In this document: piece after piece, positions 6,695 to 64,000 of the stretch | Layout of the letters: every line of letters starts with the position of its first letter | How positions within the stretch are numbered: the stretch's first letter is position 1 | Source of the DNA: Branchiostoma floridae | Taxonomy: Eukaryota > Chordata > Leptocardii > Amphioxiformes > Branchiostomatidae | NCBI RefSeq assembly: GCF_000003815.2 | Contig: NW_023365773.1 | Span: 604,878-668,877, forward strand | Length of the DNA stretch: 64,000 nt | Direction of reading: 5' to 3' | Program-made: the position numbers and the translations under genes | The notes under the pieces: generated by a model | Seen by the model: the letters and a program-made list of their open reading frames with translations, nothing else | The model's database searches: none | What the model was told of the DNA's origin: nothing

Positions 6695-7874
6695 ACATGT
6701 CGTTACAAAATATTTATTTTCATTCCTGTACAAAACATACACCGTACGGTAATTGAGCAAATATGTACATTTAATTTATAGATCTTTAACTACAATGTAA
6801 CATAAATATATACAGTATATATACAACACAAGAAATAGATCTAAAAGAACGGCCTCTTATAGAACATATCCAGCTTTGAGGGAATCACAATTTGATAAGT
6901 TTCTTTCGAAGTCACGCATAACGCTGTAATAGCGAATAGTAATGTTATGCTTTACGTTAATATTACATGGAATATGCTATACATTTATAATAACGGTGAT
7001 AATGAAGGAATTTCTGTGTAGTGTATACAGTTAAAGATTATACTTTATCTTGCAGTATGTTTCAGCTGTGACAAGCACACATCTAGAACTTTGACAAAGT
7101 TACAAATGATACTGTGTTTTCAACTTAACATTACATGGATGTTATAGTTACAAGGAGATTTAGAAGGAATTTGCCACCAAAAGACTAGGTGCTTGTTAGA
7201 GATGGAGACTGAGAGGGGGAAAGCTAAAAAACGGGCCTAACATTTAGTAACAATATGTGTCAAACCCCTTCAGAATAGTACTTGTTCTGAGTTTCCCTAG
7301 CACATATGGTACATTTATGAAAGAGGTAGATATGCAACTAAAAATAGATACATTTGTGTCGGTTGGGATGTTACTGACCTGTGCGTCCATAAACTTACAT
7401 AAAGTTACAGGTATCAGATGGACTTGATCCCTGAATATCAATCCCTGTTCACACGTCTTTTGTATGCAGACCATTACATGGATAGCAAATAGGAGACACG
7501 TGATGTTTGAATGGCCTGCTAATTGCTATAGCGATAATTCTTGGGTATCAATACCTGTTTATGTGACTGTATTTTGTACACAAACCATTACAGGGCGGGT
7601 AACATTAAGGGAACACGATGTTTGGGTGACTTGCTTAGTGATATCTCTAGAATATTTGTGTCTTGAAGCTGGTATTACTCATAATTACTAGTTAAGGTGA
7701 CAAAACTTAGAAATGATTTCACTTGGTTCCCTCTCAGAAGTTACCGAGGTGTGATGTCTAGCTCTAGCGCCTACTACTAGTAGGGATGATAAATTTTATG
7801 CTGCATAGCTCATATCATTATGGGGAACAAATGAAACACGAGCTGTCAGGAGAGAGAGCCAACCTAGAGTGACA
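6695..7874 (-). other. Gene A 3' UTR
   Basis: Non-coding DNA between the stop codon of gene A and its presumed poly(A) site. It shares blocks with the same interval of gene B (for example around 7295-7480 and 22800-22990), so it has been duplicated with the gene. Confidence 0.6.
6713..6718 (-). terminator. Gene A poly(A) signal AATAAA
   Basis: AATAAA on the minus strand, inside a block (AATATTTATTT followed by TGTACAAA on the plus strand) that recurs near 22082, 38614 and 52280 downstream of genes B, C and D. That recurrence supports this as the real 3' end. Confidence 0.6.
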
Positions 7875-10800
7875 TTAGCTACATCTGCGACCTTTGTGCT
7901 CAATCAAAACCTTCAGCTGCCCGACCTTCACGCGTATCCAATATCTCTCCCTCCTCAACTCCTCCCACTGCTGTTCCTCCCTCCGTACATCCTCCCCACC
8001 TAATTCCACAGACTCGCCCTCATCAGCCTGGCTGCCGTCATACAGGAGGTCATTAGATAACCACTTGTAAGCCTTTCCCTTCATGGTTCTCACAAAATCT
8101 CTGACTCCTTCTGCACTGAACCTGTTATCTTGAAAGTCGACACTCTTCACATCTGTCCTAACCTTCAGCCATGCAGCTATGGCGGGGAGGGACTCGTCAC
8201 GGATGGAATTGTTATCAATATCTACTTGTGTCAGGAATGGAAGGTTGGTGAAGGCAGCTGCTAGTTCTCTAACATCAGACAACTTGTCATAACTAAGGTC
8301 CACCTTCTTCAGATTCTGACATGAACGAAGACCTTCAGCAAGACCAGGCACTGCCTGATCAGTAATGTCGTTGTGGCTGAGATCTATCTCCTCCAAGTTA
8401 AGGAGCGGAGGTAAGAAGTCTCCCCTTTTAGACAACTTGTTATGACTAAGGTTCACCTTCTTCAGGTTCTGACATAAAGTAATACCCTTAGAAAGACCAG
8501 GCACTGCCTCATCACTAATGGAATTGTGACTGAGGTCAATCTCCTCCAAGTTAGGGAGGGGAGGTAAGAAGTCTCCCCCGTCAGACAACTTGTTATGACT
8601 AAGGTTCACCTTCTTCAGGTTTTGACATGAACAAAGACCTTTAGCAAGACCAGGTACTGCCTTATCACTAATGGCATTGTGACTGAGGTCTATCTCCTCC
8701 AAGGTGGGAATGGGAAGTAAGAAATCTCCCATGTTAGACAACTTGTTATGGCTAAGGTTCAACTTCTTTAGCTTCTGACATGAACCAAGAACTTTAGAAA
8801 GACCAGGCACTGCCTTATCATTGATGTCATTGTAACTTAGATCCATCTCATCCAAAAAAGGCAGGTGTTGGAACAGAGTTGAGAGTTTAATTATGTTGTC
8901 CAATGACCAATCCTTCAGCTTCAGCTTCCTTAACAGATGCTTCACTCCATACAGCTGGTTGATGTGTTCAGCTTCCTCCTTACCCTGACAGCTGACACAA
9001 AGTGCTAACTCCTGCAGGTTGGACAGCTGTGGGAGGAACTTCAGTAGAAGGTGGACTGCAGTGACGGGTAGTGAAACATCCCCATCCAGCCAAGAGAACT
9101 CTCTGGATGTAAGATCAAGTTTTGTTACCTGGCTGGCTTCTGTTCTGCGTGTGAGGAGAGACTGGAGATCGGGCGACATTCTGACATTGTTTTTAGTCTC
9201 TACCTGCAGCTGTTGGGGCTGCTTTAGCAACAACATCAGCGCCCCCTTATTGGATATGTCATTAATGGAGAGATTGACACTGTTCAAGATCGGACATGAA
9301 GCAAGGCCTGTAGCAAGACCAGACACTGCCTCATCACTAATGGCATTGTGACTGAGATCTATCTCCTCCAACTTGGGGAGGGGAGGTAAGAAGTCTCCCC
9401 TGTCAGACAACTTGTTATGACTAAGGTATATCTTTTTCAGGTTCTGACATGAACCAAGGCCTCCAGCAAGACCAGGCACTGCCTCATCACTAATGACATT
9501 GTAACTGAGATCTATCTCCTCCAAGTTGGGGAGGGGAGGTAAGAAGTCTCCCCTGTCAGACAACTTGTTATCACTAAGGTTCACCTTCTTCAGGTTCTGA
9601 CATGAACCAAGACTGTCAGCAAGACCAGTCACTGCCTCGTCACTGATGGCGTTGTGACTGAGGTCTATCTCCTGCAAGTTTGGTAAGTGTGGTAAGAAGT
9701 CCCCCCTGTCAGACAACTTGTTATGACTAAGGTTTACCTTCTTCAGGTTCTGACATGAAGCAAGACCTTCAGCAAGACCAGACGCTGCTTCATCGTTAAT
9801 GGTATTGTGACTAAGGCATAGATCCTCCAAGTTGGGGAGGGGAGGTAAGTCTAGAATATAACATTTAGCAAGTTTTAAAACATTTAAGTTTCTGTACAAA
9901 GCAAGGCACCTTCTTGACATTGACTGGGCATTCCTTTTCTCGTCGTCTGGTAATGAAGACTTTGTGCCATGCAGTGCTAATGTGCTGAGAGATGGTGCGA
10001 ATAGAAAATACGGTGCCATCTTGGAAAAATATTCTATAATAAACCCTTTCATCTTAATTGTCAGTATTTTCAGAAAGGGGCAGTGCAAAAGGTACTTCTG
10101 AACGTGACCAACTACTAAGGCTTCGTCATTTAGCTTGAAGTACAAGCTCTCAGCATGCATCGAGTCAGTCTGGAGTAAGGGCAAGTAACTTAAGCAGCTG
10201 ATTTGTTGGTCATGACTGACATCTTTTACAGCTTTAGACATGTTGAATGGATACATTTTAAGTAGGTGTTTACATTCCAATCTGCTAGGTAACTTTATAT
10301 CTCTGATTGCTCTGGTTTTGGACATGAAATTTGCCAGACTGTGGAGCCCATGGAAGGATATTTCTGGCAGAGAGAGCAAATCAAGAGTTTTCTCTGGGAA
10401 CAAGGATTCTACGACTGGAGTCAGTAAATCTACTTGTTTTGCTTCCACTGTTGCAGTGACAACATGTAATTTGTGATCGAATGCTCCAAGTCCTACATCT
10501 GACTGAATGAGCAAGTTAAAAAACTGAAGCAGGTGGTCTCTATGGCTGTCTGACTGGCCCAGCAAATGGGCAACACAGTAACAACTGAGAGGGAGAGCAG
10601 ATGATTTCTTAACGAAATCTCTCAGCGGTAGCTCCCCCTCTGTATTTGTTGTAACCATGTGTACGACCCACTTTGCAATGAGAAATTGTCGTATGCTGTC
10701 ATGTACAAACTGGAAAGAGCCAGTGTCTTCAGGATCTCCAGATAGCAGTCCTAAGCTAGACTGATGGATATCATCCCATTCTAGCTGGTCAGGATGCACA

Positions 10801-11182
10801 AGAGATTGCTTGTTCTTTGATTTATTCTGATAGGCTTTTTTTCCTAACACTAGGCAGGCAGATTTACAAGAGGACTCGAATCCTCCATCACTCACATTAT
10901 TTTGGGAAGAAAACTTTCTCACACGCCACATAGCTACAAACTCCACAAACATTGATAATGTATGAGGAAAACTTTGATACTGTTTCCAGTACTCACACAA
11001 GTAAGAGTGGAAAAACCTGTCCCTGATGAGGTGCTTAACCAGTAAGTTACTTGGCCAGCTCTCCTGGATTGATCTTTCCGTGTCTTTATCAGTCTCGAAG
11101 AAGTCTTGGATGCAGTCATCCCAGGCCAAGGCGTCTTCACCGGTTGGGTACATTAAAGTGATGACTGTGCTGCTGCGTGGTG
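7875..11182 (-). CDS. Gene A terminal exon: NACHT-type WHD remnant, LRRs, cap
   Basis: The exon begins after a TTTTTTCAG acceptor in phase 1 and encodes about 1,100 residues. The first 200 resemble the helical and winged-helix part that follows the nucleotide-binding core of NLR proteins: SNLLVKHLIRDRFFHSYLCE, a FVEF element, then FQFVHDSIRQFLIAKW, the counterpart of the NLR FxFxHxSxQEFLAA motif. No Walker A or B sequence precedes it. LRRs follow in two blocks, separated by a segment with LPVTAVHLLLKFLPQLSNLQ. The cap (last ~100 residues) has FSAEGVRDFVRTMKGKAY and REEQQW. Closest to the terminal exon of gene D in the winged-helix part (LPLSCYCVAHLLGQSDSHRD). Confidence 0.8.
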
Positions 11183-14100
11183 CTGAAAAAAAAAGAATTT
11201 TATGATTTAGATGACAAAATAGATTCTCAAGTTTCCAAACGTTATGACATAAACATTAATATACACAACAATACTACCAAAACCATGTACAATAGTAGCT
11301 AGAGTTCCACGAACACATACCTTTGCCAAATAAACCAGGCTTGTTATGTAGAATGATGTCTGTAGACATAGATGTGTTACTCATTACATTTTATTCTATT
11401 TGCCTGGAGTTGGTTGATAAAATTTCACTATTGATTATACAAATTAGATCCCAATTTACATAATTAATACCAAATTGTATCAAGTATTACTAAAGCTATC
11501 AGGATACCAGTAATCATGATGACCCTTTCATCCTTCTGGACTTATTCTCTTTAAAAGTCTGAAACTAAACTGACTCCTGCAGTTTCAAAAAAAGATGTGA
11601 GGGGACCCAAACATACACCTCTTACTCTCTACCCTCTCTCTCAGTTACATATGTGACAAGTTTGAAAGTCCTAGCATGGAATACAGTGGATTATGAACTT
11701 TCCTTATAATTTATGCATATTATGTGTGCATAATTGGTTTCTCATTATGTAAGTTTTCACTTAGGCTACCTACATACCAAAAATCATGACGATCCTTCAA
11801 CACGTTCATATTTTCCTATTCATTATGCAAATGATGAACTCATTTGCATAATTAAGATCTATTGACATTTCTCTCTTTCTCAGCTACATATGTGACAAGT
11901 TTGAAAGGCCTATCGTGGAATGCAGTGGATTTATAGACTTTCCTCATTAATTATGCAAATTAGCTGTTGATTTGCATAATTAGTATCTCATTATGTAGGT
12001 CTTCACTTATGCTACCTACATACCAAAAAACATGACGATCCGTCAACATGTTCATATCTTCTCATTAATTATGCAAAGGAGGTCGTCATTTGCATAATTG
12101 ATATCTATCGACATTTCTCTCCTTCCCATCTACATATGTGACAAGTTTGAAAGTCCTATCATGGAATGCAGTGGATTTATAACTTTCCTCATTAAATATG
12201 CAAATTTGCTGTTCATTTGCATAATTAGTATCCTATTATGTAAGTCGTCACTCATTCTATCTACATACCAAAAGTCATGACGATCCGTCAACATGTTGTA
12301 GAGTTATTCTCGTCCAAAGTTTGAAAGGAATCTGGAGCCTGCAGTTCCAAAAAAGCCGCTAGGGGGCCCAAACTAACAGCACTTACTCTCTGCCCCAAGG
12401 GCTATCTACCATTCAAAACTCACGACCACAACATGTCCAGAACGCGAGATACGTAAAAAAATTAGTTTCCGCTGCGGTACCTTAGCAAGCCGCTAAGGTG
12501 TCCATTATCAAACTTGACCTTCGTTTCTCTGACCCCTGCCCACCTACCAAATATCATCAGGATCCATCCAAGACTTCTTGAGTTATGCTCTTGACAGACA
12601 CACACACAGACACACAAACACGCCCAAAACATAACCTTAGCCATTCTGGCAAAGGTAAACATAAATAACAGATATCAACAACAGTGGACATCACTATAAT
12701 TGTAATATAGAGGAACCTGTACCACATATCAGTATTTTCTAACTCTCATCTGACAAAAATGAAGTTCAAAAGAACGCAATAAACTTCAAAGTAACCTCAC
12801 CATCATCTGAGTCTCCATCTGAACTTGACCCGTCACCTTGATCATCCTGACCTTTCCACTCTGACCCCCATGAACCATCGTCCACATCCTTCTGGAACAG
12901 TGCACCGGTCTCCAGCTCATCTGCAAGTAAAGTAAAATTGCATCAAAATGAGATATGAATTTTAACGTCAGCCTTGAGCCCAGAAAGTATGAACTGAAGA
13001 AAAAACCTGCTGAACCTAAAGAGAAATCTATGTAAATGACATGACTGAAAACAGAACCAGTTAACTTTATCATAAAAACACTATGAAACTTTTATGATCT
13101 TAGCATAAAGTTAGAATACATTTGCAGTCATTAAACACTTACCCTGGGTTGTACTTGGACGTGGACCAGTTTTACGTGCTGAACCACCAGGGTCTCCGTC
13201 TGAGACAACATATGGAAACTTTCTGTTTTACTAAACAAATAACAGTTAGCAACAACAGTTAACATTAGTGCACATGGTCTTTGATTCACATACTAAAAAA
13301 ATGTATTTTCGAACCCTCTTCTAAAAAATTGAAATAGTAAAAGAATTAAACACAACGACAGTTATCTCACCGTCATCTGAGTCTCCATCTGAACTTGTCC
13401 CGTCACCTTTATCATCCTGACCTTTCCACTCTGACCCCCATGAACCATCGTCCACATCCTTTTGGACAATGCACCGGTCTCCAGCTCATCTGCAAGAATA
13501 AAGGGAAATTGCATGAATCTAAATTAGATACGTTTTCATGTCATTGTCCAATTAATGAGACAGATTTCTTTAATCCGAAGAAATGAGACAACTAAGAAAA
13601 AGATGAAGATAAAGATAGAAATATAGAAGACTGTACAGAATCTACTACCTACCTGCTATCTGGTGCAGGCCAGCTGCTCTCAGCCCCACCAACACAGCGT
13701 CCACTGTTGCTCCCCACAGTTCCCTCTGTACCCACTCCCACAGACACCAGTGTGGATGGTAGCTGGGGTGATAGGTGCTGCTGATCCTCTCCACGTCTGC
13801 ACTGGTGAATCCCAGCTGTAAGGCCAGCCATGTCCAGTAGGGGCCCAGTCTGTCGGCTAGCAGCAGCAACTTGTAGTAGCAGTCTGGGCAAGAAAAAGAA
13901 AGAAGAGGATTTGCAACATTTGAAAATTGCATCACAACCACCATCATGACTTCCCTGTGCTTTGAGCACCGGATTATGGAACTGTTACTCTGATGAATAA
14001 AGATTTGTTGCGCCAGACCTACCGATTGCCCGAACGCAACTTCCTGAGGAAACAAATTCCTGACAGTGATCACTATTTACAAAGAAACACAATTCAATGT

Positions 14101-17100
14101 GATACTGTAATCATGAAGAAATGTCAGTACTTACGATAACAAAAGGGATCCTCTTGTTGCTGTGCATGATGCATCAGATCTGCCTGTTCTTGCTGGAGCC
14201 CAGCACCGGCACCTGTTTCTGTCGCCGTCTGGACTTTTTCCTTAGTTGATGGTTGGTCCATGTATAGGCGTGGTTCTGTGGCCAAGTGATGTTCTGTGCC
14301 CATGCGGTGTTCTGTGTCCATACGATGGTCTATGTCCATGTGGTGTTCTGTGTCCATGTGATGTTCTCGGTCCATGTGGTGTTCTGTGCCCATGCGTTGT
14401 TCTGTGTCCATGTGGTGTTCTGTGTCCATGTGGTGTTCTGTACCCATGGAGTGTTCTGTGTCGAAGTTCAGTTCTGATTCCGTGTTCCCATGTATGCCAT
14501 GTTGAGGGTCTGTTGTCAGAGATGAGTGTTTTACGTAATGTTCTTCTGTCTTCAATACAGGGAATGACGCTGGTTGTATTGAAGGATGCTGTGCCCCTGT
14601 GCCTTCAGAATGACGTGGTTCTTCAGTTCTATGGCGATGTTCTGTTTTGACGTGATGATGATGAGTCGTCAGACTAAGATGTTCTGTTTTGACTCTGTGT
14701 CGCGGTTCTGTTTTAACTTGAGGCTCTTCTCGTTTTACGTGGAAGTGTGGTTCTGCCTTCATATGGCGAAGCCTTTGAAAGTCGAATGGTGGTGGTCTGT
14801 TTATAAGTTCAGTTTTAAGAACAGGAGGCTGTTCGGATTTCAATACTGACATGATAGGCCCTGGTTTGATGTCCCTTACTTCTGTTGAGTAGCTGCAGGA
14901 TGGAAAGTCTTGCGGTGGTTCTGTTTTTACGGGAGACAAAGGCTCCTGTTTGATGAAGACATCTGGAAACTGAGATGGAGCACTTCCCACCTGGCTGCTT
15001 CCTTCAGGTCCTTTTGGCTCTTCTGTATGAGTTAAAATTGAAAGTATTAGAAATCACACAAATGAATAATTTGTACTTGGTTTCCTCGGCAGAATAGTAA
15101 TCATAAAGCTGGAATGTTACAGAAATTATCCTTACCTTCATCTGAGAGACTGTCGTCTTGACATTCCCCATCCGCTCCCAGCAGTGTGACGTGTACGTAC
15201 AGATCCTCCCCTTCTGCTGCCCTCATGTCGTCTGTGATCAGTTCCCGGGTCAGGGTTTCTGACAAACGTCCGTCTCTGTAAGCAGCTAGAAACGTCCGAT
15301 AGCAGGATGTGTCGTCGAAGTCAATGTAGCAGAGCACACAGCCACGCTTTAGTCTTTTAAGAATGGCTTTAAACTGCTTAAAACAGTTGACGATTCTGTC
15401 ATAGGTCTGTAAGTTTCTCAATGCCCTTGTTGTAAAGGCTGTTTTATGAACTTCTTTCACACGACGACCAGCTGCCCGTTTTAATCGTAATTTTACTCTT
15501 TGCTCAAGTTTCGGTCCTTCCGACTCGCTGTCTGTACCGATGACTGTCTCTGCGTGTTTTCGGAACAGCGAAACTGCCTTTTCGAACTTGTCCGGATCTC
15601 TCACATTGCCTGCGTGGAAAACGTCCTTACTCATCTTCAACAAGGTGAAATAATCATTGTTCTCGTCAGATGAGGCGTCTTCAGTGGGACTATGTGTACT
15701 ACTTCCAATATTTCTTCTGCATGGCTCTACAAAAGATAACATAAAGATCAACTGTTAGTCGAAGAGTTTATCGAAAACCAGGAACTACCACCAGAAAGGT
15801 TTTAGATGTCTTTCTTTCAAACCGTCAACTTTATCTCATTGTGTATTGATGGCTCGCAACATTTATCGAAGTTTGAAACATTTTCAACATTTTATTTCAA
15901 CTAGAAAGCTTGTGCAAAATCTTATGATGCAAACGTGAATATAAGCCATAGGCAAGTATTAAATGCTGGTTTACAAAATTCAGCTGAACTTCTGGCAACA
16001 ACTGTTATCAATAGTCCTTAGACCGTCTGGGTAGTATGTTAGTGCGATGTTAGTTTTATGGGCGTTCAATTCCTTACCTTTTATTGATAATTCACCATCA
16101 GCAGAATCAGTCTCAGTCCTTGGTCTCTTGGACCTTGCGAGGAGAGTCTGGTCCTGACTTTTCAACTTCTGTTTATGTGTCCCTCGTGGGGACAATTGCA
16201 CACTTAACTCTGTTAAATGAAACAGAAGCATTATATTAGGACTGAATGAGCCAGACATTTAGTGGCATGACCAAATCGGTGGTCTTAGCTGATACCACAA
16301 ATAGTCACTCTTTGAATAACGTTTAATTGTGACAATGTGCGTTAAAAGTAAAACTTCAGTATACTGTACAGTATACAGTATGCTATACTTGCACAATCCT
16401 ATACGCTCATATTTTTATCATTCTTTGCTTATAACCTTCCTGATTACATACGACCTAAACTTATAACCTTCCTCAGGCTTATTACATCTTAATGCTTTGC
16501 GCACCTGTCACAATTTTCAGACAACTAAATATCAGTTTTACCCACCTGCAGTGTGCTGAAACCCTCCCTTCCTGAGAGCGTGTGCCAGCTTGACCCTACA
16601 GGCCTTCCTGCCGCGCCTGTCCCTCCAGAGCTCCAGGGCCTGGCACGCCTGGTGCTCGGTGCTGCTGGGATGTTGGAGTTGGATGTTCACCACGTCTTGT
16701 GCTGTCAGGCCCAGCTGTTCTACTGCAAACTTACCCCAAGAGGGTCCAACTTCTTTGGCAACTAACAGTAAGTAATTGTGGTCCAAACCGCGCCCTGAAC
16801 ATAGAAATATATCAACATAGTAAGTATACTATTAAGCAAATTGAACGTTACACTCATCACGTTTACTGTTGTTTGCTATTGGGGTGTCCGGGTTGTATGT
16901 CATGTATGTCCTGTGTTGTGAGGCTCAGTTGATCTTCTGAAAACTTCATCCAACAGGACGCAACAGATTTGGCTACGGGTGTGAAAACACTTGGGGCAGT
17001 TCCCGGTCCAGGACAAGTGGCAATCCGCAACTTAATTTAAAGAGCCACAGTTTATATCAGTACTTATTATATATATATATATTTATCAAAATGATAATGG

Positions 17101-17914: not shown

Positions 17915-18357
17915 TTCGGAGACCAACACACTAGAATCGACTGGCACCGAGAACTCAGCTATTTATCAAGTTTTGAACACTACAATTGCATAAATGGCGT
18001 GTGCAAATGCCGCATATTTTAATGTGTAAAAGTAGAAATGTAGAATCACCCCTAAAATGCTTTGGCACGGTCCGATTGGTACCTATGGTAACGGTATGCC
18101 AGCCAGGTAGGACAAGAGTTCAAAGGATCCGTGGCAGATTGTGGTCTTTCATTGATCCTGAGAAGTTGCTTGTTTTGTTATAGCCGGTAACCCGTCCGTA
18201 GCTGTACCACATTAGTTTTGTTTGTTTGTTACTGCCATTTTTAAATGGGTCCTGGGAAAGAAATTAGACACATGTCACTATCATAAAATCAAATCAGATG
18301 ATGGCTGTAAATAAAAGCTACACCAGAGGTTTATTTAATGTTTCTCTTGGAAATGCA

Positions 18358-18380
18358 ATGTTATGTTATGTTATGTTATG
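18358..18380. repeat. (TTATG)n microsatellite
   Basis: About four and a half copies of TTATG upstream of gene A. Confidence 0.7.
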
Positions 18381-18702
18381 CTACATAGCAACTGTAGTTC
18401 AGAGGACACAAAACACTTGAGACAGTGGAGTAGAAGTGAAAGAATCAGCCTAGAACCACCCCCCCTTCATGCAAAAATGGACTCTCCCTGCGAGTGATGA
18501 ATTTACAAACATACAAGTACCCACCGAAGGTCGCCAGGTAGAGACGTCACAATACAATATAAACAAAGTCAGCGATTTGAAAAGCCAGACACACAAATAA
18601 CAGTAACGTTAACGTTATCAGTATCGTGCCCATATCTGTGTGAAAACGCCCTGAACGAGGTTTAGTATGTTGCAGTCAGAACGCCACGCTTCTGTAAGCG
18701 CG

Positions 18703-18740
18703 TTACGTCATTGGAAAACACCTGGGCAAGGGGAATCCCC
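18703..18740. promoter_or_regulatory. CRE-like plus kappaB module 1 (gene A)
   Basis: TTACGTCA (18703-18710) is followed after 19 bases by GGGGAATCCCC (18730-18740), a symmetrical site that fits the NF-kappaB/Rel consensus GGGRNWYYCC. It lies about 0.8 kb upstream of the DED start codon. Confidence 0.55.
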
Positions 18741-35382: not shown

Positions 35383-35386
<4 letters not shown>

Positions 35387-51448: not shown

Positions 51449-51560
51449 CCGGGTTGGTCCGTTTGGTGGCCATAAATCCTTCAAAAGCACCGCAACAGTT
51501 ACATGACCTACAGGTTCTCCGCCATTTTGACACCTAGTGGAAAGTCCCAGCTTTGTTGAC
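51449..51560 (-). promoter_or_regulatory. Candidate non-coding first exon and promoter of gene C
   Basis: A GTAAGT donor (minus strand) abuts 51449, and GGAAAGTCCC sits at 51539-51548. Sequence and positions are conserved at 21294-21420. Confidence 0.35.
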
Positions 51561-53572: not shown

Positions 53573-56500
53573 TTACTTTGCATTGTTTAATCTGGAACCT
53601 CTATGGTCAATCGTAACAGTCAGTTGTCTGATTTTCACGCATATCCAGCCTGTCTCTCTCCTCAACCTCTTCCACTGCTGCGCTTCATCCTGTACATCAT
53701 CCCTATACAGGAGTCTGCCATTTTGATAAGCCTCGCCCTTCATGGTTCTTACAAAATCTCTAACTCCTTCAGCACTGAAGCAGTTACCACACAGGCCGAC
53801 TTTATCCATAGCTGTCCTAACCTTCAGCCATGCAGCTATGGCGGGGAGGGACTCGTCGCTGATTGAATTATATTCAATGCTCACATGGGTCAGGGTGGGA
53901 AGTATGATAAATGTTTGTAACAGTTTTCCGACATCGTACAGTTTGTTATCGCTCAGGTTGACTCTCTTAAGATTCTGACTAGACGCAAGACATTCAGCAA
54001 GACCAGGCACCGCCTCATCATTGATATCATCGCGACTAAGATCTATCTCTTCTAAAAGAGGCAATTTCCGTATCAACTGAGAAAATAGTTTTATGATGTT
54101 GTCCAGTGACCACTCTTTCAGCTTCAGCTTCTTTAAAAGATGCTGCACTCCATACAGCTGACTGATGTGTTCAGCTTCCTCCTCCCCCTGACAGCTGACA
54201 CAAAGCGCTAACTCCTGCAGGTTAGGCAGCTGTGGGAGGAACTGCAGTAGGAGATGGATGGCAGTAATAGACAGTGGAGTCACGTCGCTCCAAACGTATT
54301 CTCCAGATACGAGGTCAAGTTTCCCTACGTTGTCGGTATCCTGTCTGCCTGAGATGAGAGATGTAAGGTCACGACTTACGTTGTTTCCCAAAACATAAAA
54401 CTGTATTTTTCTGCGACTTTCCTGTTGCAACATCATCAATGCTCCCTTATTAGAGATCTGATTATTGGTGAGATGGACTGTTCTTAAGCCTTGACATGTA
54501 GCAAGACCTTTAACAAGACCAGGCACTGCCTTGTCGTTAATAGAATTATGACTGAGATCTATCTCCTCGAGGGCGAGGGGAGATAAGAAGTCTCCTCTTT
54601 CAGACAACTTGTTATGACTAAGGTCCACCTTCTTCAGATTCCGACATGAACCAAAACCTTTGGCAAGACCAGGCACTGCCTTATCACTAATGGCATTGTG
54701 ACTGAGATCTATCTCCTCCAAGTAGGGGAGGGAAGGTAAGAAATCTCCCCTGTCAGACAACTTATTATGACTAAGGTCCACTTTCTTCAGATTTTGACAT
54801 GCACAAAGAACTTTAGTAAGACCAGGCACTGCCTCATCACTGATGTCATTGTTACTGAGATCCATCTCCTCCAATTTGGGAAGTGGAGGTAAGAAATCAC
54901 CCCGGTCAGACAACTTGTTATGACTAAGGTTCACCTTCTTTAGGTTCTGACATGAACCAAGACCCTCAGCAAGACCAGACACGGCCTCATCACTAATGGC
55001 ATTGCAACTAAGATCTATTTCCTCCAAGTTGGCGAGGGGAGGTAAGAAATCTTCCCTGTAAGACAACTTGTTATAACTAAGATTCATCTTTTTCATGTTT
55101 TGACCCGTACAGAGTCCTTTGGTGCGGCCAAGCGTTTCCTCATTACGTGCCAATGCGATGCTAATGAGACCAAGATTGCTCTCATTCTTAATGGAGAGGA
55201 CTGACAAAACGTCTGCCCAGTTGGACACCTTATTATGTCCAAGGTTCACCTTCTTCAGATTCTGACAGGACCGAAGGCCTTCAGTAAGCCCAGAAACTGC
55301 CTCATCACTAATGGCATTGTGACTGAGATCTATCTCCTCCAAGTTGGGGAGGGGAGGTAAGAAGTCTCCCCTGTCAGACAACTTGTTATGGCTAAGGTTC
55401 AACTTCTCTAGATTCTGGCATGAAGCAAGACCTTCAGCAAGATCAGGTACTGCCCGATCACTAATGTTATTGCCACTGAGGTCTATTTCCTTAAGGTTGG
55501 GGAGTGAAAGTAAGAAGTCTCCCTTGTCAGACAACTTGTTAAAGCTAAGGTCGACCTTCTTCAGACTCTGACATGAAAGAAAACCTTTAGCAAGACCAGG
55601 CACTGCAACATCACTAATATAGTTATGACTTAGATCTATCTTCTCCAGATTGGAAAGTGGAGGTAAGAAGTCTCCCCTGTCAGATAACTTGTTATAACTA
55701 AGGTTCACCTTCTTAAGGTTCTGACATGAACCAAGGCCTTCAGCAAGACCAGGCACTGCCTCATCAGTAATGGAATTGTAACTGAGATCTATCTCCTCCA
55801 AGTTGGGGAGGGGAGGTAAGAAGTCGCCCCGTTCAAACATTTTGTTATGACCAAGGTTAACTTTCTTCAGGTACTGACATGACATAAGACCTTTAGCAAG
55901 GCCAGGTACTGTCTCGTCACTAATAGCATTGTGACTGAGATCTATCTCCTCCAAGTTGGGGAGGGTAGGTAAGAACTCTATTCTGTGAGACAGCTTGTTA
56001 TGACTGAGGTTAAGCTTCTTGAGATAAAGTGAAAAACAAAGACCTTCAGCAAGACCAGACACTGCCTCATCGCTAATGGCATTGTTGCTGAGATCTATCT
56101 CCTCCAAGTTGGGGAGAGGAGGTAAGAAGTCTCCCCTGTCCGACAACTTGTTACAACTGAGGTCTACTTTCTTCAGTTTCTGACATGAACTGAGACCTTT
56201 AGACAGACCAGACACGGCCTCGTCACTAATGACATTGTGACTGAGATCTATCTCCTTCAGGTTAGGAAGAGGGGGTAAGATATATTTTCTAACAGACAAT
56301 CTGTTCCAACTGAGATCAATTTTCTCCAGGTTTTGGCATGAAGCAAGACCTTCAACAAGACCAGGCACTGCCTCATCACTAATGTCATTGTGACTGAGAT
56401 CTATCTCCTCCAAGTTGGGGAGGGGAGGTAAGAAGTCTCCCTTGTCAGACAGTTTGTTATAGCTGAGGTTTACTTTTTTCAGCCTTTTACATGAACCAAG

Positions 56501-57951
56501 ACCTTTCGCAAGGTCCGGTATTGTCTCATCACTGATTGCATTGTGACTGAGACTTACTTCCTCCAAGTTAGGGAGCTGAAGTAGGAGTAATCCAGAATCC
56601 GGGCAGGTAAATCTTACTTTCCTTACGTGGTCGTGACTAAGTTTTAGAATCTTCAAGTTTCTACATGATGCCATACATCTTCTTGACATGGACATTGCAT
56701 TTCGTTTTACAGTCTCCGTGAACCATGCACCACGAACAACTAATGTGCTGAGAGCTGGAGTGAATAAAAGATATGGTACGATATCTGAAAAAGCTGTCAT
56801 GTTTGTTTCTGTCTTTTGTACGCTGAGCGTTTTCAGTGAGGGACAGTTCAGAAGGTACTTCTGTATGTCATCAACCTGTAAGGCTTTGTCAGTTCTTTTG
56901 AAGTGCAAGTTCAAGTTATCAGTATATCTTGAATCAGCTTGGAATAAAGGCAGATAACTTAAACAGCGTATGTGATCGGAATGACGGATGTTTTTGGCAA
57001 CTCCGCGTTTGTTAAAGGGATACAGTTTGAGAAGATTCTTATATGCAATCATAGTTGGGAGCTTTATGTCTCTAATTACAGTGGTCTTAGACATTAAAAT
57101 TGTCAGGCAGTGGAGCCCGTGAAATGTGATTTCCGGGAGAGAAAACAAGTCAAGCGTTTTCTCTGGGAACAAGGATTCGACGATAGAAGTAAATAAATCT
57201 ACTTGTTTTGATTCCACAGTTGTAGTTACCACATGTAATGTGTGATAGAATGTCCCATGTTCTGCACCTGACTGAATGAGCAAGTTCACAAACTGAAGCA
57301 GATGGTCTCTATGGCTGTCTGATTGGCCCAGCAAATAGGCAACACAGTAACAGCTGAGAGGAAGAGCAGCTGATTTCTTTACAAAATCTCTCAGCTGTTG
57401 CATTCCCTCTGTACCTGCTAGAACCATGTGTACCAGCCATTTTGCAATGAGGAATTGCCGTATGGTGTCGTGAACAAACTGAAAAGAGCCATGTTCACGG
57501 GATGACGGTTGCAACAGCCCAAAACTTGAGTGCGGAACATCATCCCACTCCAGTTGGCCTTGATGCACAAGGCACTGATTGTTATTTGATTCGTTCTCAT
57601 AGGCTATTTTCCCCAACAAATGGCAGGCACTTTCATAGGCAGACTCGAATTCTTCCTCATTAATGCCAGTTTGGAAAGAGGACTGACGTGTAGATACTTC
57701 GGTGACAAATTCTACAAAAGCTGCTAAGGTACCAGGAAAGCTTTGATACTGTTTCCAGTATTCACACAAGTAAGAGTGGAAAAACCTGTCCCTGATGAGG
57801 TGCTTAACCAGTAAGTTACTTGGCCAGCTCTGCTGGATGGACCTTGTCGTGTCTTCATCAGTCTTGAAGAAAACTTGGATGCAGCCATCCCAGGCCAAGG
57901 CGTCTTCACCGGTTGGATACTTCAACTGGCTGATTGTGCTATTGTAAGATG
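53573..57951 (-). CDS. Gene D terminal exon: WHD remnant, LRRs, cap
   Basis: About 1,458 residues from the TTCGTTCAG acceptor, starting ASYNSTISQLKYPTGEDALA. The NLR-like part has SNLLVKHLIRDRFFHSYLCE, AFVEFVTE, LLGKIAYENE and FQFVHDTIRQFLIAKWLVHM, without P-loop. It has the longest uninterrupted LRR array in the window, one segment of diverged repeats (about 55080-55250), the LPNLQELALCVSCQ segment and the cap. The last residues are HRGSRLNNAK. Confidence 0.82.
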
Positions 57952-60900
57952 CTGAACGAAAAACAAATCTTATTAATCATAAGGCCTAGAAAACTTACGT
58001 GGTTCCTAAGTCATAATTGTTGAAGAATGGAATGGGCATTTCTAATTTTATTATCATCATCAACATCAAGAATAGCTTTATCTAAAAGTAAAAAAAAATC
58101 GCAGGAACACAATGTAAAACAATAACAGTAACACTGAGCTGGTCAACTGTAAAAATAGCAAAAAATGATATAAAATCAATTTAAGATCATAGAAGGTCGA
58201 GAAGACGACATATCAAAACTAGAAGTTATGCTGCAGTACCGCCAAAGCTGCAGGGAGACCGAGTAACAAACTCGACCCTTCAAACCTACAAAATATCAGA
58301 AGGATTAATCAACAACTTCTCAAGGTATGTGAGGTTAACACACATAACGTTCTTGTCGTATATAGGCCTTGTCGTAATGTCACTGATCATAATGCATTTC
58401 TATATAATACGAGGAATTTTATTCACCAGAATATGAAACCGCACTCTTGTCTCCTGCAGAAATGTTTCCACTCCCCTCCTTGTCATCGTCACGATCTGGT
58501 TCCGAAGCCGATGTCTGGCCGTCCTCTGGTAACCTTTCATTGGATCTCTCCTCACCTAAGATACAGAGGGAATAGATTCATAGGCTGTCTCCAGCACCTC
58601 ACTAAGTTTGGACAATTAGTAATTTGTAACATGCCGTAAGAAGGTATCTCACTAGACTGTGTTGGCAGTATGTTGGCGACTGACACCACATACTGCCAAC
58701 GCACCGTGAATAGTAACCGGCGCCAACGAACGCCAAAACGCCGCAGAAGTGACAAAAACGGCACATACATGGTACTTAACACGTAAAAGTGAAATCTGGT
58801 ACTAGTATATGTTGCGTGTCTGTTACTGTTAGATTTTTAAAAATGTTTTTTATGTTTATGCGTATACTGACAATATATTTGACTATGCTGTGCCAAGTAT
58901 CATAAGTCACAGGGCATCCTTTTATCATTGCATTTTAATTATTTTACATTTTGTTTACCTTATTAACAACGCTACGATTTCCAATAACCGGCTTCGCTAA
59001 CATGCAACATAACACGTCAGTGTGACCACGGGATAGGAAAGAACAAAAGAAATATTGTATATTTCTGTTTATAGACAAGCGGATAGATCGGATACCAATG
59101 TACAGCTTATTATGTTTTGCAGTTGCCAAAATTGAATGAGACCACTTCGTTTTTTTTTCTCTCTCTGTACATTTCGTTCTTGCTTTATACTTAGTGTAGC
59201 ATGTTCCCGAGATCACGGCTACTTACCTACTTGGACCTGAATGTCATCTTCCTGCTCAGAATCGCTACTGCTATCATGGTGCCTTTTCAATGTTAATCTG
59301 CCATCTACCAACGGAAAAAATGAAAGGAGTGTTTTATTGAAGAAAAACGTATAAAACTCTTGGACTTATATATGCTTATATTCAACTCAAATAGATGCGC
59401 GTAATGATTATCTCATCTATGTATACCTTGTGGTAGTATACCTTGTGGTACATAGATAAGACTGCTGAACCCCCACCACTACACTTACCACGACTGCCTG
59501 TGCCCATGTCTTCATCTTGCTTCTCTTTTGTAGCCTCAGCTGCTGTTGTAAACAGCTGACCAGAATATGCTTCATCTGCAAAAAGGAACAAAGCGTCAGA
59601 CATAGAGCTTCAAAAGGCACAACTAACCCTAATGAATACCAATAGTCAGTAACAGTGCAGAAATGTCACATGCAAATTTTACCAGCACCATGGCATGTAC
59701 AATGACGAAAAATGAGTTAGGAATAATGTTTGACTTGATGCTCTTTCAGTGTGTGAAAATGAATTGAAAGTTGCCGACTAACTCCTCTTTGCTGGCTGCA
59801 TCATAATCCCACTCATACGGGCTCAAACTGCCATGTCCCTCAACCAATCACCACCTCGCTGTCGTGCACTGAGTAGAATCTTTTTATAACGTTACACCAC
59901 TGAACCACTATTGTACATCATGGCCCCGGATGTCTGAATACGGTGTTCTGTGACCTCAAAGCCAAAATGATAATGGAGTGAAGAAAGACTGATAATGGAG
60001 GAGAACTAATATTTACCAGAATCTAGAACTGTTCTCCTATCGTCCTCAGCTATGGGTCCTCCCTCCACGTCGCCATGACTACGACTGGACTCTGATGACT
60101 CACTGGCGGTATCTTCTGGTAACCTTTCGCCACCTGGGATCAAGATTAAAATATTCAATTGCTGTTGCTGCCTTCCAACGATTGGTCTGAATCTCAAATG
60201 TATGCAGATAAATCATTTGCTAGCACAGCACATTTTTTATACATCATAACAAACTCATGACCTTGTGATCTCTACTTGGTACTGGCACTACTGCTGAACA
60301 CTACCACCATACTCACTACCAGGCCAGTCGGTATCCATTTCTCCATCTGGCTTCCCTTTTGCCACCTCGTAATCTGCTTCTGTCACAAACAGCTGACCAG
60401 AATCTACCGCATCTACATAAAAAGAAACAAGAGCGTTAAATATCTGGCCACGTGAACATAATATTGATAATGATGAAGTTGAAATGGAGAAAGTTGGTAT
60501 ATTAATGAGTGCAGGACACAATCAGTTTGGTGGCTGCACTTGCAAAGCTAAGAAGGGTTTGGCACTCGGTTTTATCGAGTTCTGGGAAGTGTGGCATTTG
60601 ATACAGAGTAAAGTGTGTTTTGATGTCAGTTTCAATTTGTATTACTGCAACTTTTCTACTTGGTTTGGTTGTCAAAGGAAAGTGCCATCTGTAATTGTTT
60701 GAAGAAAAGATATTGTCTACTTCCCATATTAAACGGGGTTTATAGACGCCCCGTCTGTTTACTCTGCCACTTGGTATTCGTCATCAAAACCATTTCACCG
60801 TTATCAGGACGTTTCGCCGCCTAAAGGACGAATAACCTAAACCCTAACCCCAACTCATACTAACCTAGTCCCTAATTCTAACTCCGATGGACGAACATCA

Positions 60901-63900
60901 ATCCTAACTATATAACGCCCCTCTCCCCAAGTGGTCGAGAGCATTGTCCAAATGCCTTCATACGCGTTTCTCTGTCAACAGTCCAGAATGAGATCTTGCT
61001 TGTAACCCAGACACACTACAGAAAGTCCCCAAACACCATCAGGAATTTTTTCAAAGCAAACACCGTTCTTTAAGATAACTGATATCGAAATCAAGGACGT
61101 TTAAGAAATAGCAACAGGATGCACGTAAGACGTTGCATGGCCAGCTTCCGATCTGTCCAGTGTCGAAATCAGATCCTCACTTTGTAGGTATTAATTACCT
61201 ACAGACAGTTGCATATAACTGGACAAATACAAAATTCAAATCACATTCGACATGTTGGGGAGGGCAAGGAGTTTAATTTCTTGGATTCAAAACCTAATTT
61301 AGAGCCGATGTCTGCTGTGAAAGGCTGCTGTCATTGCCGTGTTTGATTTTTGACGACGCATTAACATAATCTATGTAGGTTTTAGACTAATGCAAATGGA
61401 ATTTTGCCAAGTACCTCATTTGCCACTTGTACAAAATAGCAGGTCTACACTATAACACTCAACGCCTTGAAATCACCAGACTTCAGTCTTAAATAAAGAA
61501 TCCGCTTACAAGCTGTGATTGAAAAATAAAAGATTGCAAATACCTGCAACCTCGTGTATCCCAGCATCCCTCAGGGCCTGCACCAGCTGTTCCAGCATGA
61601 CGTCACCAACGTTCCTCTCCATCCAATCACAGATCAGCTGGTGAGGACGGAGGGAGGGGGGCAGTCTGGCTGTCAGGTCCCGGATGTAGTCAGTGTTGAA
61701 GCCGAGATATAAAGCCAGCCGCTCCCACATGGAACCCAGATGGTCAGCAATGGCGGCAAACTGTCTGTCTAGTTCTGTAAAATATGAAGGGTTTGGTGAT
61801 CAATTTACGACTTATGGAAAATATCTAATACTGATATGTATATATATATATAACAATACATATCAGATATCATTATCACTTCTGCCAAAATTCATCGTCC
61901 ATATAACGTCCATAATGATTGATGGTCTTAATATACATGTTCTTGCCTACATAGGCTAAATGCAGGTGTTAAATCATTTACAATCACAAGGAAGACTATA
62001 CTGTAGGTCAGTATCGTTCCACGTAGACTACAACAAAAAAGCCAAGATCTTTTAAATGCAGCTGTCGTTACATCCAGGTAAACATAATTCGTACCTGACT
62101 CTTCCTTCACCTCAATTCCATGGGTGTCCAACTCTAAAGAGTGAAAAAGGAAATTATGAAGATAAACCCTGAATATACATGAATGTATCGTTATTCAACT
62201 AGAATACATACAAATTACCAAAAAGAAAATCTACGTGCATGCTGTTCTGGAACACCATTTTGTAACTTTCAGCTTCTCTCCCGCGAAATAAAGAAAACTA
62301 ATTATTCACCTGATTTCACCGTTCCCATCATGCAGCAGGACAGCACCTGCTCAGCTGGCTCCTGCTTCACCTGGATTACGTCATCGCCACCTGACACCTG
62401 CTGCCCACCTGTGCCATCACCATGGTAACCAGGAGGCATCTCGTCACCATAGTTACTGCTGCCTGGTTCAGGAGGACCCTGTCCTGAATGTTCCCGAGAT
62501 GGACCAGGATGTGGGAGGCCTCGGCCTGCTGTGCCACTCGGGTCTGGGGAGAGTAAAGGGATTGCGTCATGATAAAGGTTATTGTTGGGTGTACACATGT
62601 AGTCAGCGTTAAAGCCAAGAGAGAAAGCCAGCATTAATTAGCCATTCGTTCCCACAGGGAACCCGTATGACCAACAACATCACTCAATGGTCTCATGGAT
62701 TACGAATGGCAGTACATGTAAAGGTGATAAACGTTTCACTGAATAGGGAACATTAAGATATTTGATGCGTTACAATTCCTTTAAAATCAGGATATTTCAA
62801 ATTTTTAAATGTAATTTTTCTCTTGGCCGTCTGTAATAATCACTTCTGCTCTAATGTATATAGGTCATGAATTTCAAAGTTCCATAACAAAGATATGGAA
62901 CGATGCCTTTCATGATAATATCCCATGACAGGAATATTCATTACATATCGTAACCGGATTCTTCCGTCAACTTCATTCTAAGGGTGTCCACTTCTTATGT
63001 AAAATTAAAGAGAGAAAACCCTGTTAACAATGTATGACAGGTGAATACTTATCACAATGACTGATTATTGCCGATTGCAATTATGTGTCTTGTATTTCAC
63101 TGCGCAAGTTGTTATATATTCATTATATTACCTCATATATATTTATATATATATAAATTGATTTATTCTCTAACACAAAGGGAATAGGGCATCTGCCTGT
63201 GCTCACCTGGTTTCACGCGACCCTGATGGTACAAAGGCTCCTGTTTGATGGAGACTGGCAAGTCTGGCGCTGTACTTTCTACCTGGCGTCCCTCTGTAGG
63301 ACCTCTCGGCTCCTCTGTACAAATGAAAGAAAATGCAACCGGTAATTTTAAGTCAGACAGAGAAGATTGATTCTATAGATTTTTGGTAGCTAAAATGATG
63401 ATGAAAATGAGCGTTACCTTCATCTGAATGACTGTCGTCATGGCATCCTCTTTCCTCTGTAGCGTGAAATGCAGAAGATCACATGTTCACATAGCACACA
63501 AAGAACGATGTTAAACAAACTTTTCTCAAATTTAAGTTTACACTTTTAGAGTACGTAAATTGTACCTTTATCTGCTAGACTGTCGTCCTGACATTCCCCA
63601 TCCTCTCCCAGCAGTGTGACGTGTACGTACAGATCCTCCCCTTCTGCTGCCCTCATGTCGTCTGTGATCAGTTCCCGGGTCAGGGTTTCTGACAAACGTC
63701 CGTCTCTGTAAGCAGCTAAAAACGTCCGATAGCAGGACGCGTCGTCGAAGTCGAGATAGCAGAGAACACAGCCGCGCTTTACTTTCTGTAGGGTGGCACA
63801 AAATCTTTCAAAACAATTGACGATTCTGTTGTATACTTTCAGGTCACTTAAAATGCGCGTTGTAAATGCCATCTCCTGCACTTCTTGAACTTTTTTATTG

Positions 63901-64000
63901 ACTGCCTTAGCGAGTTTTAACTTCACACGTCGATCAAGGAGCGGTTTTTTTGAATCTCTGCCAGATTCACCAATGACTAACTCTGCATGTGTTTGGAACA
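53573..64000 (-). CDS. Gene D (5' partial): TRADD-N-like-DEATH-LRR gene
   Basis: Join on the minus strand: 64000-63566 (partial), 63456-63418, 63314-63207, 62543-62310, 62133-62095, 61774-61544, 60412-60320, 60133-60017, 59575-59489, 59304-59227, 58556-58427 (frame-broken, likely skipped), 57951-53573. It leaves the window inside the TRADD-N-like exon, so N-terminal death folds, if any, lie to the right. TRADD-N-like and terminal exons match gene A. The third DEATH, VKEE and VKQEP exons match B and C. It is thus a chimera of both subfamilies. Decayed copies of exons in its introns show active exon turnover. Confidence 0.65.
53900..56640 (-). repeat. Gene D LRR-coding array
   Basis: 153-base LRR-pair units, more diverged from each other than in B and C, which suggests less recent homogenisation. 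Confidence 0.85.
57952..58426 (-). other. Gene D intron with a dispersed-repeat fragment
   Basis: 58180-58330 (GCTGCAGGGAGACCGAGTAA, then CTACAAAATATCAGAAGGAT) looks like a dispersed-repeat fragment related to the one in gene A. No exon. Confidence 0.35.
58427..58556 (-). pseudogene. Gene D cassette exon with a 1-base frameshift
   Basis: Splice sites match the family and it starts GEERSNERLPEDGQTSASE. It is 130 bases long instead of a multiple of three, because of an extra base near 58501 (TGGTTTCCG). In frame it hits a stop soon after. Beyond the extra base the other frame reads on coherently as in the gene C exon. It is either a skipped dead exon or a sequence error. Confidence 0.6.
58557..59226 (-). 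other. Gene D intron, nothing recognised
   Basis: A 670-base intron without exon or repeat that I can identify. Confidence 0.4.
59227..59304 (-). CDS. Gene D exon: short acidic linker
   Basis: A 78-base phase 1-1 exon, DGRLTLKRHHDSSSDSEQED, then DIQVQVG. Confidence 0.6.
59489..59575 (-). CDS. Gene D exon: SGQLF module, second copy
   Basis: An 87-base phase 1-1 exon (DEAYSGQLFTTAAEATKEKQ...), a tandem relative of 60320-60412. Confidence 0.6.
59576..60016 (-). other. Gene D intron, nothing recognised
   Basis: A 441-base intron. Confidence 0.4.
60017..60133 (-). CDS. Gene D exon: acidic linker
   Basis: A 117-base phase 1-1 exon (GGERLPEDTASESSESSRSH, GDVEGGPIAEDD, TVLDSG). Related to the exons at 43902 and 44462 of gene C. 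Confidence 0.65.
60320..60412 (-). CDS. Gene D exon: SGQLF module, first copy
   Basis: A 93-base phase 1-1 exon (DAVDSGQLFVTEADYEVAKG...). Donor GTAGTG, acceptor TGTAG. Confidence 0.6.
60413..61543 (-). other. Gene D large intron with dispersed repeat
   Basis: 1.1 kb without recognised exon. 60760-60900 (CATTTCACCGTTATCAGGAC, GCCGCCTAAAGGACGAATAA, then CTAAACCCTAACCCC) resembles a dispersed repeat frequent in marine invertebrates; this is from memory only. Confidence 0.4.
61544..61774 (-). CDS. Gene D exon: third death fold (DEATH)
   Basis: A 231-base phase 1-1 exon: ELDRQFAAIADHLGSMWERL, ALYLGFNTDYIRDL, WMERNVGDVMLEQLVQALRD, AGIHEVAG. It belongs to the B/C type, not the gene A type. Confidence 0.8.
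61775..62094 (-). other. Gene D intron, nothing recognised
   Basis: 320 bases; only a short (TA)n run. Confidence 0.4.
62095..62133 (-). CDS. Gene D 13-residue exon with a SUMO consensus site
   Basis: A 39-base phase 1-1 exon, ELDTHGIEVKEESG, containing VKEE. Confidence 0.65.
62310..62543 (-). CDS. Gene D exon: Pro/Gly-rich linker with VKQEP site
   Basis: A 234-base phase 1-1 exon, DPSGTAGRGLPHPGPSREHS through DDVIQVKQEPAEQVLSCCMM. Confidence 0.7.
62590..62700 (-). pseudogene. Relic of a third-type DEATH exon
   Basis: ATGTAGTCAGCGTTAAAGCC and the following AAAGCCAGC and TTCCCACAGGGAACCCG parallel 61683-61733 of the intact DEATH exon (plus strand), but with stops and indels. A dead duplicate. 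Confidence 0.6.
62953..62998 (-). pseudogene. Relic of the VKEE mini-exon
   Basis: The minus strand reads EVDTLRMKLTEESG in the correct phase, matching ELDTHGIEVKEESG. The SUMO lysine context is lost (KLTE instead of VKEE) and the donor is poor (GTTACG). With 62590-62700 it forms a duplicated exon block. Confidence 0.5.
63207..63314 (-). CDS. Gene D exon: short SUMO exon
   Basis: A 108-base phase 1-1 exon, EEPRGPTEGRQVESTAPDLP, then VSIKQEPLYHQGRVKPG. It is homologous to the first part of the gene A exon at 14135-15022 but lacks the array and the hexapeptide repeat. It keeps one IKQEP site. Confidence 0.7.
63418..63456 (-). CDS. Gene D mini-exon copying the TRADD-N exon tail
   Basis: A 39-base phase 1-1 exon, EERGCHDDSHSDEG. 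It mirrors the end of the TRADD-N-like exon (GECQDDSL-DEG/DKG), so it probably arose by duplication of that exon's 3' end with its donor. Confidence 0.5.
63566..64000 (-). CDS. Gene D exon: TRADD-N-like domain (partial at window edge)
   Basis: At least 145 residues, open to the edge: FQTHAELVIGESGRDSKKPL, the helix VKLKLAKAVNKKVQEVQEMA, RGCVLCYLDFDD, CYRTFLAAYRDGRLSETLTR, ELITDDMRAAEGE, DLYVHVTLLGEDGECQDD. It is nearly identical to the gene A domain. Confidence 0.6.

Follow-up and report, generated by a model that had tools for sequence, protein, structure and literature searches.

NLRs are understood as ATP-driven switches. Amphioxus has NLRs of the DD-NACHT and DED-NACHT kinds (PMC2575513). 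In the passages drawn on here, Kaur et al. (2021, PMC8195603) describe lineage-specific expansions of genes combining Death-like domains with TRADD-N and variable tails in marine animals including amphioxus, where there is an NCOA6 clade with the order DED-TRADD-N-WD40 and, across cephalochordates, a DEDD2 clade of 46-71 copies. The same passages contain a GT4-TRADD-N-LRR architecture (LRR, leucine-rich repeat) and sponge proteins that join TRADD-N to one to three Death-like domains and then to SH3 and LRRs, limit the classic TRADD clade to vertebrates, and propose that TRADD-N bridges its flanking domains and keeps them inactive until a signal arrives. The locus compared with these systems here is a window of 64,000 nucleotides (the whole stretch of DNA analysed) from Branchiostoma floridae, RefSeq assembly GCF_000003815.2, contig NW_023365773.1 (below C215), positions 604878-668877. 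It holds four minus-strand paralogues, each with TRADD-like_N, DEATH and LRR exons, together with a DED exon in gene 1.

These genes probably (at roughly 0.62) belong to an intracellular innate-immune signalling family built on an NLR chassis that lost its NACHT NTPase. With the families of PMC8195603, as far as those passages go, they share TRADD-N joined to Death-like domains, expansion and the possibility of an LRR tail, the sponge form being nearest in order; unlike the LRR examples there (GT4-TRADD-N-LRR and the sponge SH3-LRR form), they place TRADD-N and DEATH before an HD1-WHD-HD2-LRR chassis of the NLR type. N-terminal death folds, an HD1-WHD-HD2 region and LRRs are shared with NLRs such as the DD-NACHT and DED-NACHT forms (PMC2575513). 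Unlike in NLRs, no NACHT NTPase was found, and TRADD-N, mostly with DEATH, stands upstream of the HD module. TRADD has TRADD-N followed by DEATH in the same order, and lacks the extra front domains, the SUMO and basic linkers and the NLR-type tail seen here. PIDD1 likewise has LRRs and DEATH in one protein without NACHT; unlike the family, it has the LRRs first, then a ZU5-UPA autoproteolytic unit, and DEATH last. Neither ZU5 nor UPA matched in the Pfam-scanned exons. In the openly licensed PMC literature surveyed, as far as its passages go, neither a NACHT-less NLR with TRADD-N and DEATH nor this exact order was found. The general kind, namely TRADD-N and Death expansions and LRR-tailed TRADD-N proteins, is known, and PMC8195603 may well have counted members of this family; the NLR-derived version was not found described in those passages.

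The evidence for an NLR origin lies at the start of the LRR exon, which begins with about 200 non-LRR residues (the HD module) that have 51 matches in the amphioxus genome itself (513,431,437 bases in 431 contigs searched). A profile made from eight family members matches an intact NLR (L055) at 43.3 bits, over residues 258-455 and profile positions 11-192 of 220, in an alignment that starts at the end of the Pfam NACHT domain (110-266). A second NLR in C215 (L056) scores 24.1 bits, the best of 1000 shuffles reaching 8.0. Seven of the eight HD matches with E > 0.01 sit -26 to +154 nt behind a NACHT, and for 6 of 7 NACHT-adjacent matches the open frame has the same listed length as that of the NACHT. 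For the match at C11:15196201 the NACHT in front is partial (positions 111-165), with an open frame of the match of 518 aa vs 553 aa for the NACHT. Since the stretch both matches an NLR by profile and sits next to NACHT elsewhere in the genome, it is by sequence comparison homologous to the NLR part that holds HD1, WHD and HD2, the sub-domain names being assigned by position. In the intact NLR a single open frame covers both NACHT and HD module, and the family exon starts at the border between them.

The NACHT itself was looked for in several ways. The window and the family loci contain none of the at least 104 NACHT matches in the genome (from 152 candidates, 103 of them scored). When two intact NLRs were used to build a NACHT profile, its best six-frame score among the 1149 open frames of the window was 7.7 bits, its source sequences scoring 366-372, and no Walker A motif was seen in open frames of at least 60 aa in the window and the family loci examined. 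A NACHT concealed in a separate exon is thus not supported by genome matches, profile search or Walker A search. Homology to the post-NACHT region together with a NACHT that was not found makes the tail look like an NLR HD1-WHD-HD2-LRR chassis without the NTPase, with TRADD-N (mostly with DEATH) upstream, and on its sequence the protein looks like a decapitated NLR, not a free LRR fusion.

The same division is seen across the genome. The searches gave at least 96 TRADD-N, the best 150 DEATH and at least 104 NACHT matches, and the tally of upstream domains used 32 of the 51 HD-module matches (19 short or fragment matches dropped) with 28 of the 96 TRADD-N matches (contigs with HD matches and a few others), 22 of the 150 DEATH and 13 of the 104 NACHT matches; TRADD-N matches at C12:15320050 and C11:13561591, more than 1 Mb from any HD match, were set aside. 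Seven of these 32 long matches have a NACHT and no TRADD-N upstream, and 25 show no NACHT. For 15 of the latter, the same strand carries a Pfam-scored TRADD-N no more than 9 kb upstream; three more have one by reading. The searches showed NACHT and TRADD-N together in none of the 32. A Fisher test of TRADD-N in 15 of 25 NACHT-less against 0 of 7 NACHT-adjacent matches gives p 0.008, or p 6e-6 without the 10 matches that have neither domain.

The exons of the four genes are placed in the window as follows.

7878-11182, minus strand: gene 1 LRR exon (HD1-WHD-HD2 module ~10494-11150, LRR array, C-terminal tail; phase-1 acceptor at 11182)
12801-12920 and 13371-13484, minus strand: gene 1 short acidic exons, between the third DEATH and the LRR exon
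13653-13883, minus strand: gene 1 third DEATH, form A (phase 1-1 exon; Pfam Death 30.8 bits, 13648-14076)
14127-15053, minus strand: gene 1 SUMO-consensus exon, open-frame extent (psi-K-x-E motifs, then a tandem repeat)
15136-15726, minus strand: gene 1 TRADD-like_N exon (Pfam 27.8 bits, 15104-15754; phase 1-1)
16546-16794, minus strand: gene 1 DEATH, type D2 (Pfam Death 37.3 bits, 16541-16828)
16866-17036, minus strand: gene 1 partial second copy of the D2 DEATH (BLAST only)
17615-17962, minus strand: gene 1 DED exon, open frame (Pfam DED 37.5 bits; own possible start codon)
23253-28446, minus strand: gene 2 LRR exon, frame-disrupted (27682-28446 and 23253-27848 in different frames)
30089-30319, minus strand: gene 2 third DEATH, form B (Pfam Death 40.1 bits, 30075-30365)
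30644-31002, minus strand: gene 2 SUMO-consensus exon with VKQEP, open-frame stretch
31592-32188, minus strand: gene 2 TRADD-like_N exon (Pfam 19.9 bits, 31560-32288, under the cut-off; 65% identical to its gene 3 counterpart)
32544-32690, 32914-33081 and 33265-33360, minus strand: gene 2 small basic and acidic exons after D2
33896-34144, minus strand: gene 2 DEATH, type D2 (Pfam Death 28.5 bits, 33879-34169)
34279-34389, minus strand: gene 2 basic-run exon with KKRKRKRKKK (dN/dS 0.11 vs gene 3)
34656-34904, minus strand: gene 2 DEATH domain 1 (Pfam Death 61.6 bits, 34630-34935)
39332-43704, minus strand: gene 3 LRR exon (HD1-WHD-HD2 module ~43016-43672, LRRs, tail; LRR_6 247.5 bits)
43902-44036, 44462-44575 and 44763-44858, minus strand: gene 3 acidic exons after the third DEATH
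45049-45279, minus strand: gene 3 third DEATH, form B (Pfam Death 37.4 bits, 45023-45316)
45809-46042, minus strand: gene 3 SUMO-consensus exon with VKQEP
46497-47111, minus strand: gene 3 TRADD-like_N exon (Pfam 24.7 bits, 46465-47193)
48815-49063, minus strand: gene 3 DEATH, type D2 (Pfam Death 32.5 bits, 48765-49091)
49206-49316, minus strand: gene 3 basic-run exon
49581-49829, minus strand: gene 3 DEATH domain 1 (Pfam Death 68.2 bits, 49555-49968)
53576-57951, minus strand: gene 4 LRR exon (HD1-WHD-HD2 module ~57266-57919, LRRs, tail; LRR_6 262 bits)
59489-59575, 60017-60133 and 60317-60412, minus strand: gene 4 acidic exons after the third DEATH
61544-61774, minus strand: gene 4 third DEATH, form B (Pfam Death 34.1 bits, 61509-61799)
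62310-62543, minus strand: gene 4 SUMO-consensus exon of the gene 2/3 type
63207-63314, minus strand: gene 4 second SUMO exon, gene 1-like
63549-64000, minus strand: gene 4 TRADD-like_N exon, cut at the window end (whole exon 26.2 bits, L053)

Gene 4 extends past the window into C215:668-676k, with a second TRADD-N and two further DEATH domains. Pfam Death exceeds its curated cut-off in all nine window exons scanned for it, the DED call lies above its cut-off of 35.9 bits, and TRADD-like_N (cut-off 23.7 bits) is above in genes 1 and 3 and in gene 4, for which the whole exon was taken from adjoining DNA. The LRR_6 scan covered genes 3 and 4. In the region where the conserved TRADD-N motif of a tiny residue and a Ser would lie between strands 2 and 3, the register being uncertain, genes 2 and 3 read DGSLS and genes 1 and 4 DGRLS. 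A similar C-terminal tail stretch (LYDG ... HRG) occurs twice in the gene 3 LRR exon (39332-43704), the two separated by LRRs, as though a pair of LRR-tail units had been fused.

A first-pass annotation made from the letters of the window alone had read here four minus-strand paralogues of one multi-exon family, in the order DEATH/DED, TRADD-N-like, DEATH, LRR, and the domain and splice data uphold this. Searches with hidden Markov models bear out most of its domain calls (the gene 2 TRADD-N being the one under the cut-off), and its description of the genes as NACHT-less agrees with the profile, genome-match and Walker A searches of the window. The nuclear-type basic runs and SUMO-consensus exons that it listed are present, and its estimate of 2,000-2,400 residues for the joint product fits gene 3, where the summed exon lengths and the LRR exon come to about 2,370 codons with the first exon excluded. 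What it called an LRR tail does contain LRRs; because the exon opens with the stretch homologous to NLR HD1-WHD-HD2, the tail is not LRRs alone.

Relatives elsewhere in the genome extend the picture. At C215:175-184k (L047/L048) the order is CARD-TIR-TRADD_N-SUMO-DEATH-HD-LRR, with Pfam scores of 67.8 for CARD, 44.4 for TIR_2 and 37.1 for DEATH. The copy at C4:18.42-18.43M, whose HD module is about 30% identical, has the order CARD-TIR-DEATH-TRADD-N-SUMO-DEATH-HD-LRR (Pfam CARD 64.7, TIR 43.5, DEATH 35.8 and second DEATH 44.9 bits), its TRADD-N scoring 58.7 bits to the family profile. At C12:20.48M, about 20% identical, CARD (58.2) and TIR (42.7) are followed by TRADD-N (35.4 bits to the family profile) and HD-LRR, and no DEATH was seen between TRADD-N and HD-LRR; C14:13.12M reads like it, and its TRADD-N was scored at 25.0 when the genome was searched. 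Two DEATH exons stand in front in both the C204 and the C3 copy, about 8 kb apart on C3, and there are two TRADD-N exons both in C3 (one above the cut-off) and in gene 4 (both above). By these domain calls the front end is variable, with DED, DEATH-DEATH or CARD-TIR, and the common core is TRADD-N, mostly DEATH, then HD and LRR. The order given in the first-pass annotation therefore stands for the core and fails for a fixed front; its statement that no family of this exact order was known agrees with the passages of PMC8195603, in which the general kind had nevertheless already been published.

Several further observations concern these relatives. The matches at C11:23363807 and C204:62543 have equal scores, and the protein stretch listed for one is identical to that for the other, which suggests that C204 is an alternative haplotype of that C11 stretch. 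C17:18.30-18.90 Mb has at least 50 TRADD-N matches, and 10 of its 13 listed DEATH matches lie 207-379 bases ahead of one; by these matches it is a separate large tandem array. At L028-L030, L032, L033 and L038 (C5, C1, C4, C7, C10) there are open frames, some 350 aa long, that begin with a short HD1-like stretch, and the one on C5, read through, has a few LRRs and a C-terminal tail resembling that of the window genes.

The ratio of nonsynonymous to synonymous substitution (dN/dS) is below 1 in the exon pairs compared, except for the third DEATH of gene 1 (0.82-1.01 against the other three), and for the HD module it is 0.28-0.36 in all pairs of the four genes; these ratios are what coding exons would give and indicate purifying selection in the family. 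The third DEATH of eight close-family genes falls into two forms that are 30-40% identical between and 73-96% within: gene 1, C215:552k, C215:180k and C3 have form A, while genes 2, 3 and 4 and C204 have form B. The HD module has two forms as well, and here genes 1 and 4, C204 and C3 stand against genes 2 and 3, C215:552k and C215:180k, so that all four combinations are present among the eight genes. In approximately unbiased (AU) tests, for which the clades were named after inspecting the identity table, each grouping is rejected by the data of the other part: that of the HD module by the third DEATH (p 1.8e-5), and that of the third DEATH by the HD module (p 1.2e-6). Gene 4 is itself a mosaic: its TRADD-N and HD lie close to those of gene 1, its third DEATH lies close to that of genes 2 and 3, and its SUMO exons are of both kinds. 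Judged from these groupings, an upstream cassette (TRADD-N/SUMO/DEATH) and an HD-LRR cassette have been reassorted between paralogues. In the SUMO exon of gene 1 there is also an 18-nt tandem repeat (14273-14462) of MDTEHH-type units; it is longer, by reading, in C215:552k (L054), hence repeat length varies among paralogues.

In the four genes, 33 of 36 upstream exons have their best acceptor in phase 1 and all 36 their best donor, where chance would give one third each, in line with the consistent splice sites and phases noted in the first pass. Of the 16 close copies that could be read (L009-L013 and L015-L025; L027 belongs to the L016 gene, and the masked L014 is uncounted), 15 have a phase-1 site as the best acceptor of the LRR exon, gene 2 being the exception with 0.4 for the phase-1 site vs 0.6 for a phase-2 site. 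On C215, 10 of 14 long HD-module matches have TRADD-N upstream on the same strand, and 7 have TRADD-N plus a DEATH further upstream among the best 150 DEATH matches. The splice phases support DEATH/DED, TRADD-N and HD-LRR exons joined in one polypeptide. Two adjacent genes per unit, duplicated together, one an adaptor (DEATH/DED-TRADD_N-DEATH) and the other a separate HD-LRR gene, are quite unlikely. They would account for a Met directly before the PTGED motif in 9 of the 16 close copies, and ten residues before it in L021, but in 6 of the 16 the interval from 12 residues ahead of the conserved region to over 70 residues within it is free of Met, the next one in gene 4 and C215:464k coming about 164 residues in, so the LRR exon cannot be translated alone in full in these copies. 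The first ~85 exon residues of gene 3 and ~175 of gene 4 lack Met. Moreover, the phase-1 acceptor of the LRR exon fits the upstream phase-1 donors and the domain order is retained at 20-31% identity on other chromosomes, and given the survey of start codons and acceptors an independent LRR gene is unlikely. That the LRR exon is a decaying, untranslated NLR fragment in a cluster of pseudogenes is highly improbable: three small indels alter the frame of the gene 2 LRR exon relative to gene 3 and some copies are located at gaps or masked stretches, but genes 1, 3 and 4 have open frames of 1126, 1486 and 1467 aa, the diverged C4 and C12 copies are open too, and the HD module is constrained in every pair, as given above.

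The indels in gene 2 are one of several points that weigh against an immune family on an NLR chassis. The HD module matched no PDB chain, whether searched as single sequences or as a profile, and Pfam gave no match above cut-off for eight members (a weak HTH_TANC1 match in the Pfam scan, E 0.025, was not used), so the NLR link rests on comparison within the same genome. Besides gene 2, the TRADD-N exons of C215:180k (18.6 bits), C204 (17.3), C12 (13.0) and one of the two on C3 are under the Pfam cut-off, and the C4 exon has no Pfam match. Seven of the 25 NACHT-less HD matches show no TRADD-N upstream, some of them near gaps or masked sequence. The LRRs show no excess of variation where residues are predicted to be exposed on the strand (mean entropy 0.87 vs 0.83), in a weak test of 26 units whose pattern selects conserved-type units. 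As the units are uniform and the exposed positions not more variable, a hypervariable pathogen-binding surface is not supported by the units compared, and a role of the LRRs as a scaffold or for a conserved ligand is as likely. Lastly, the parts, their order, the failure to find a NACHT and the selection are read from the DNA, and everything said about function is inferred from them. The uniform LRRs would also suit a regulator linked to the nucleus or to transcription, similar to DEDD2, with LRRs as scaffolds and not as a pathogen receptor. Basic runs such as KKRKRKRKKK and the SUMO sites would direct such a protein to nuclear bodies, gene 1 having 10 psi-K-x-E motifs in the 309 aa of one exon (2000 shuffles: mean 0.38, maximum 3), and 46-71 cephalochordate TRADD-N domains fall in the clade of DEDD2, which is called nucleolar in the passages of PMC8195603. 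Yet the basic-run and SUMO motifs are short, and the CARD-TIR fronts and the NLR chassis indicate immune signalling; a nuclear role of this kind appears unlikely.

The surroundings of the cluster contain further elements. Adjoining it at 1618-5046 of the window (plus strand) is an open 1142-aa frame of a non-LTR retroelement with PHD finger, endonuclease and reverse transcriptase; retrotransposons near TRADD-N genes are mentioned in the passages of PMC8195603. The C215:538291 region (L009) matches window positions 41985-42563 and 42928-45172 at 99.6-99.8% DNA identity with masked sequence between, and this second partial copy of gene 3 may be either a very recent duplication or an assembly duplication. 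About 43 kb past the window end, on the same strand, C215:711993-714792 holds a NACHT-LRR frame with two DEATH matches upstream, by its domains an NLR neighbouring the NACHT-less cluster.

For the immune signalling family on an NLR chassis, the mechanism proposed is as follows. The HD/WHD-LRR part would keep the TRADD-N/DEATH core inactive through direct contact, until a ligand, a partner, or SUMO or nuclear relocation freed it; the N-terminal death folds could then seed homotypic complexes, bringing in caspases or FADD-like or TRAF-like adaptors, with cell death or NF-kB as the output. The front domains would recruit death-fold or TIR partners, the HD-LRR part would restrain the core or sense, and variants would arise by tandem duplication and reassorting of the upstream cassette with the HD-LRR cassette. 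With the P-loop absent, switching presumably could not depend on nucleotide exchange. The TRADD-N unit stands upstream of the HD module, where the NACHT stands in NLRs, a position that fits the bridge idea in the passages of PMC8195603. It is an even call whether TRADD-N replaced NACHT in an old NLR lineage, giving ATP-independent 'headless NLRs' whose simplest form would be CARD-TIR-TRADD_N-HD-LRR (C12, C14), to which DEATH would have been added later, the C215 cluster then diversifying by phase-1 cassette exchange that reassorted front (signal), core (TRADD-N/DEATH) and tail (HD-LRR).

If this is true, the rest of the NLR chassis would be controllable in another way than by the NTPase, and receptors could work without ATP. 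The family would directly test the model of TRADD-N as a movable bridge between sensing and effector parts that is set out in the passages of PMC8195603. The cluster is also a natural set of recombinants, in which similar cores come with DED, DEATH or CARD-TIR fronts and with swapped tails, so the contribution of each cassette may be compared.

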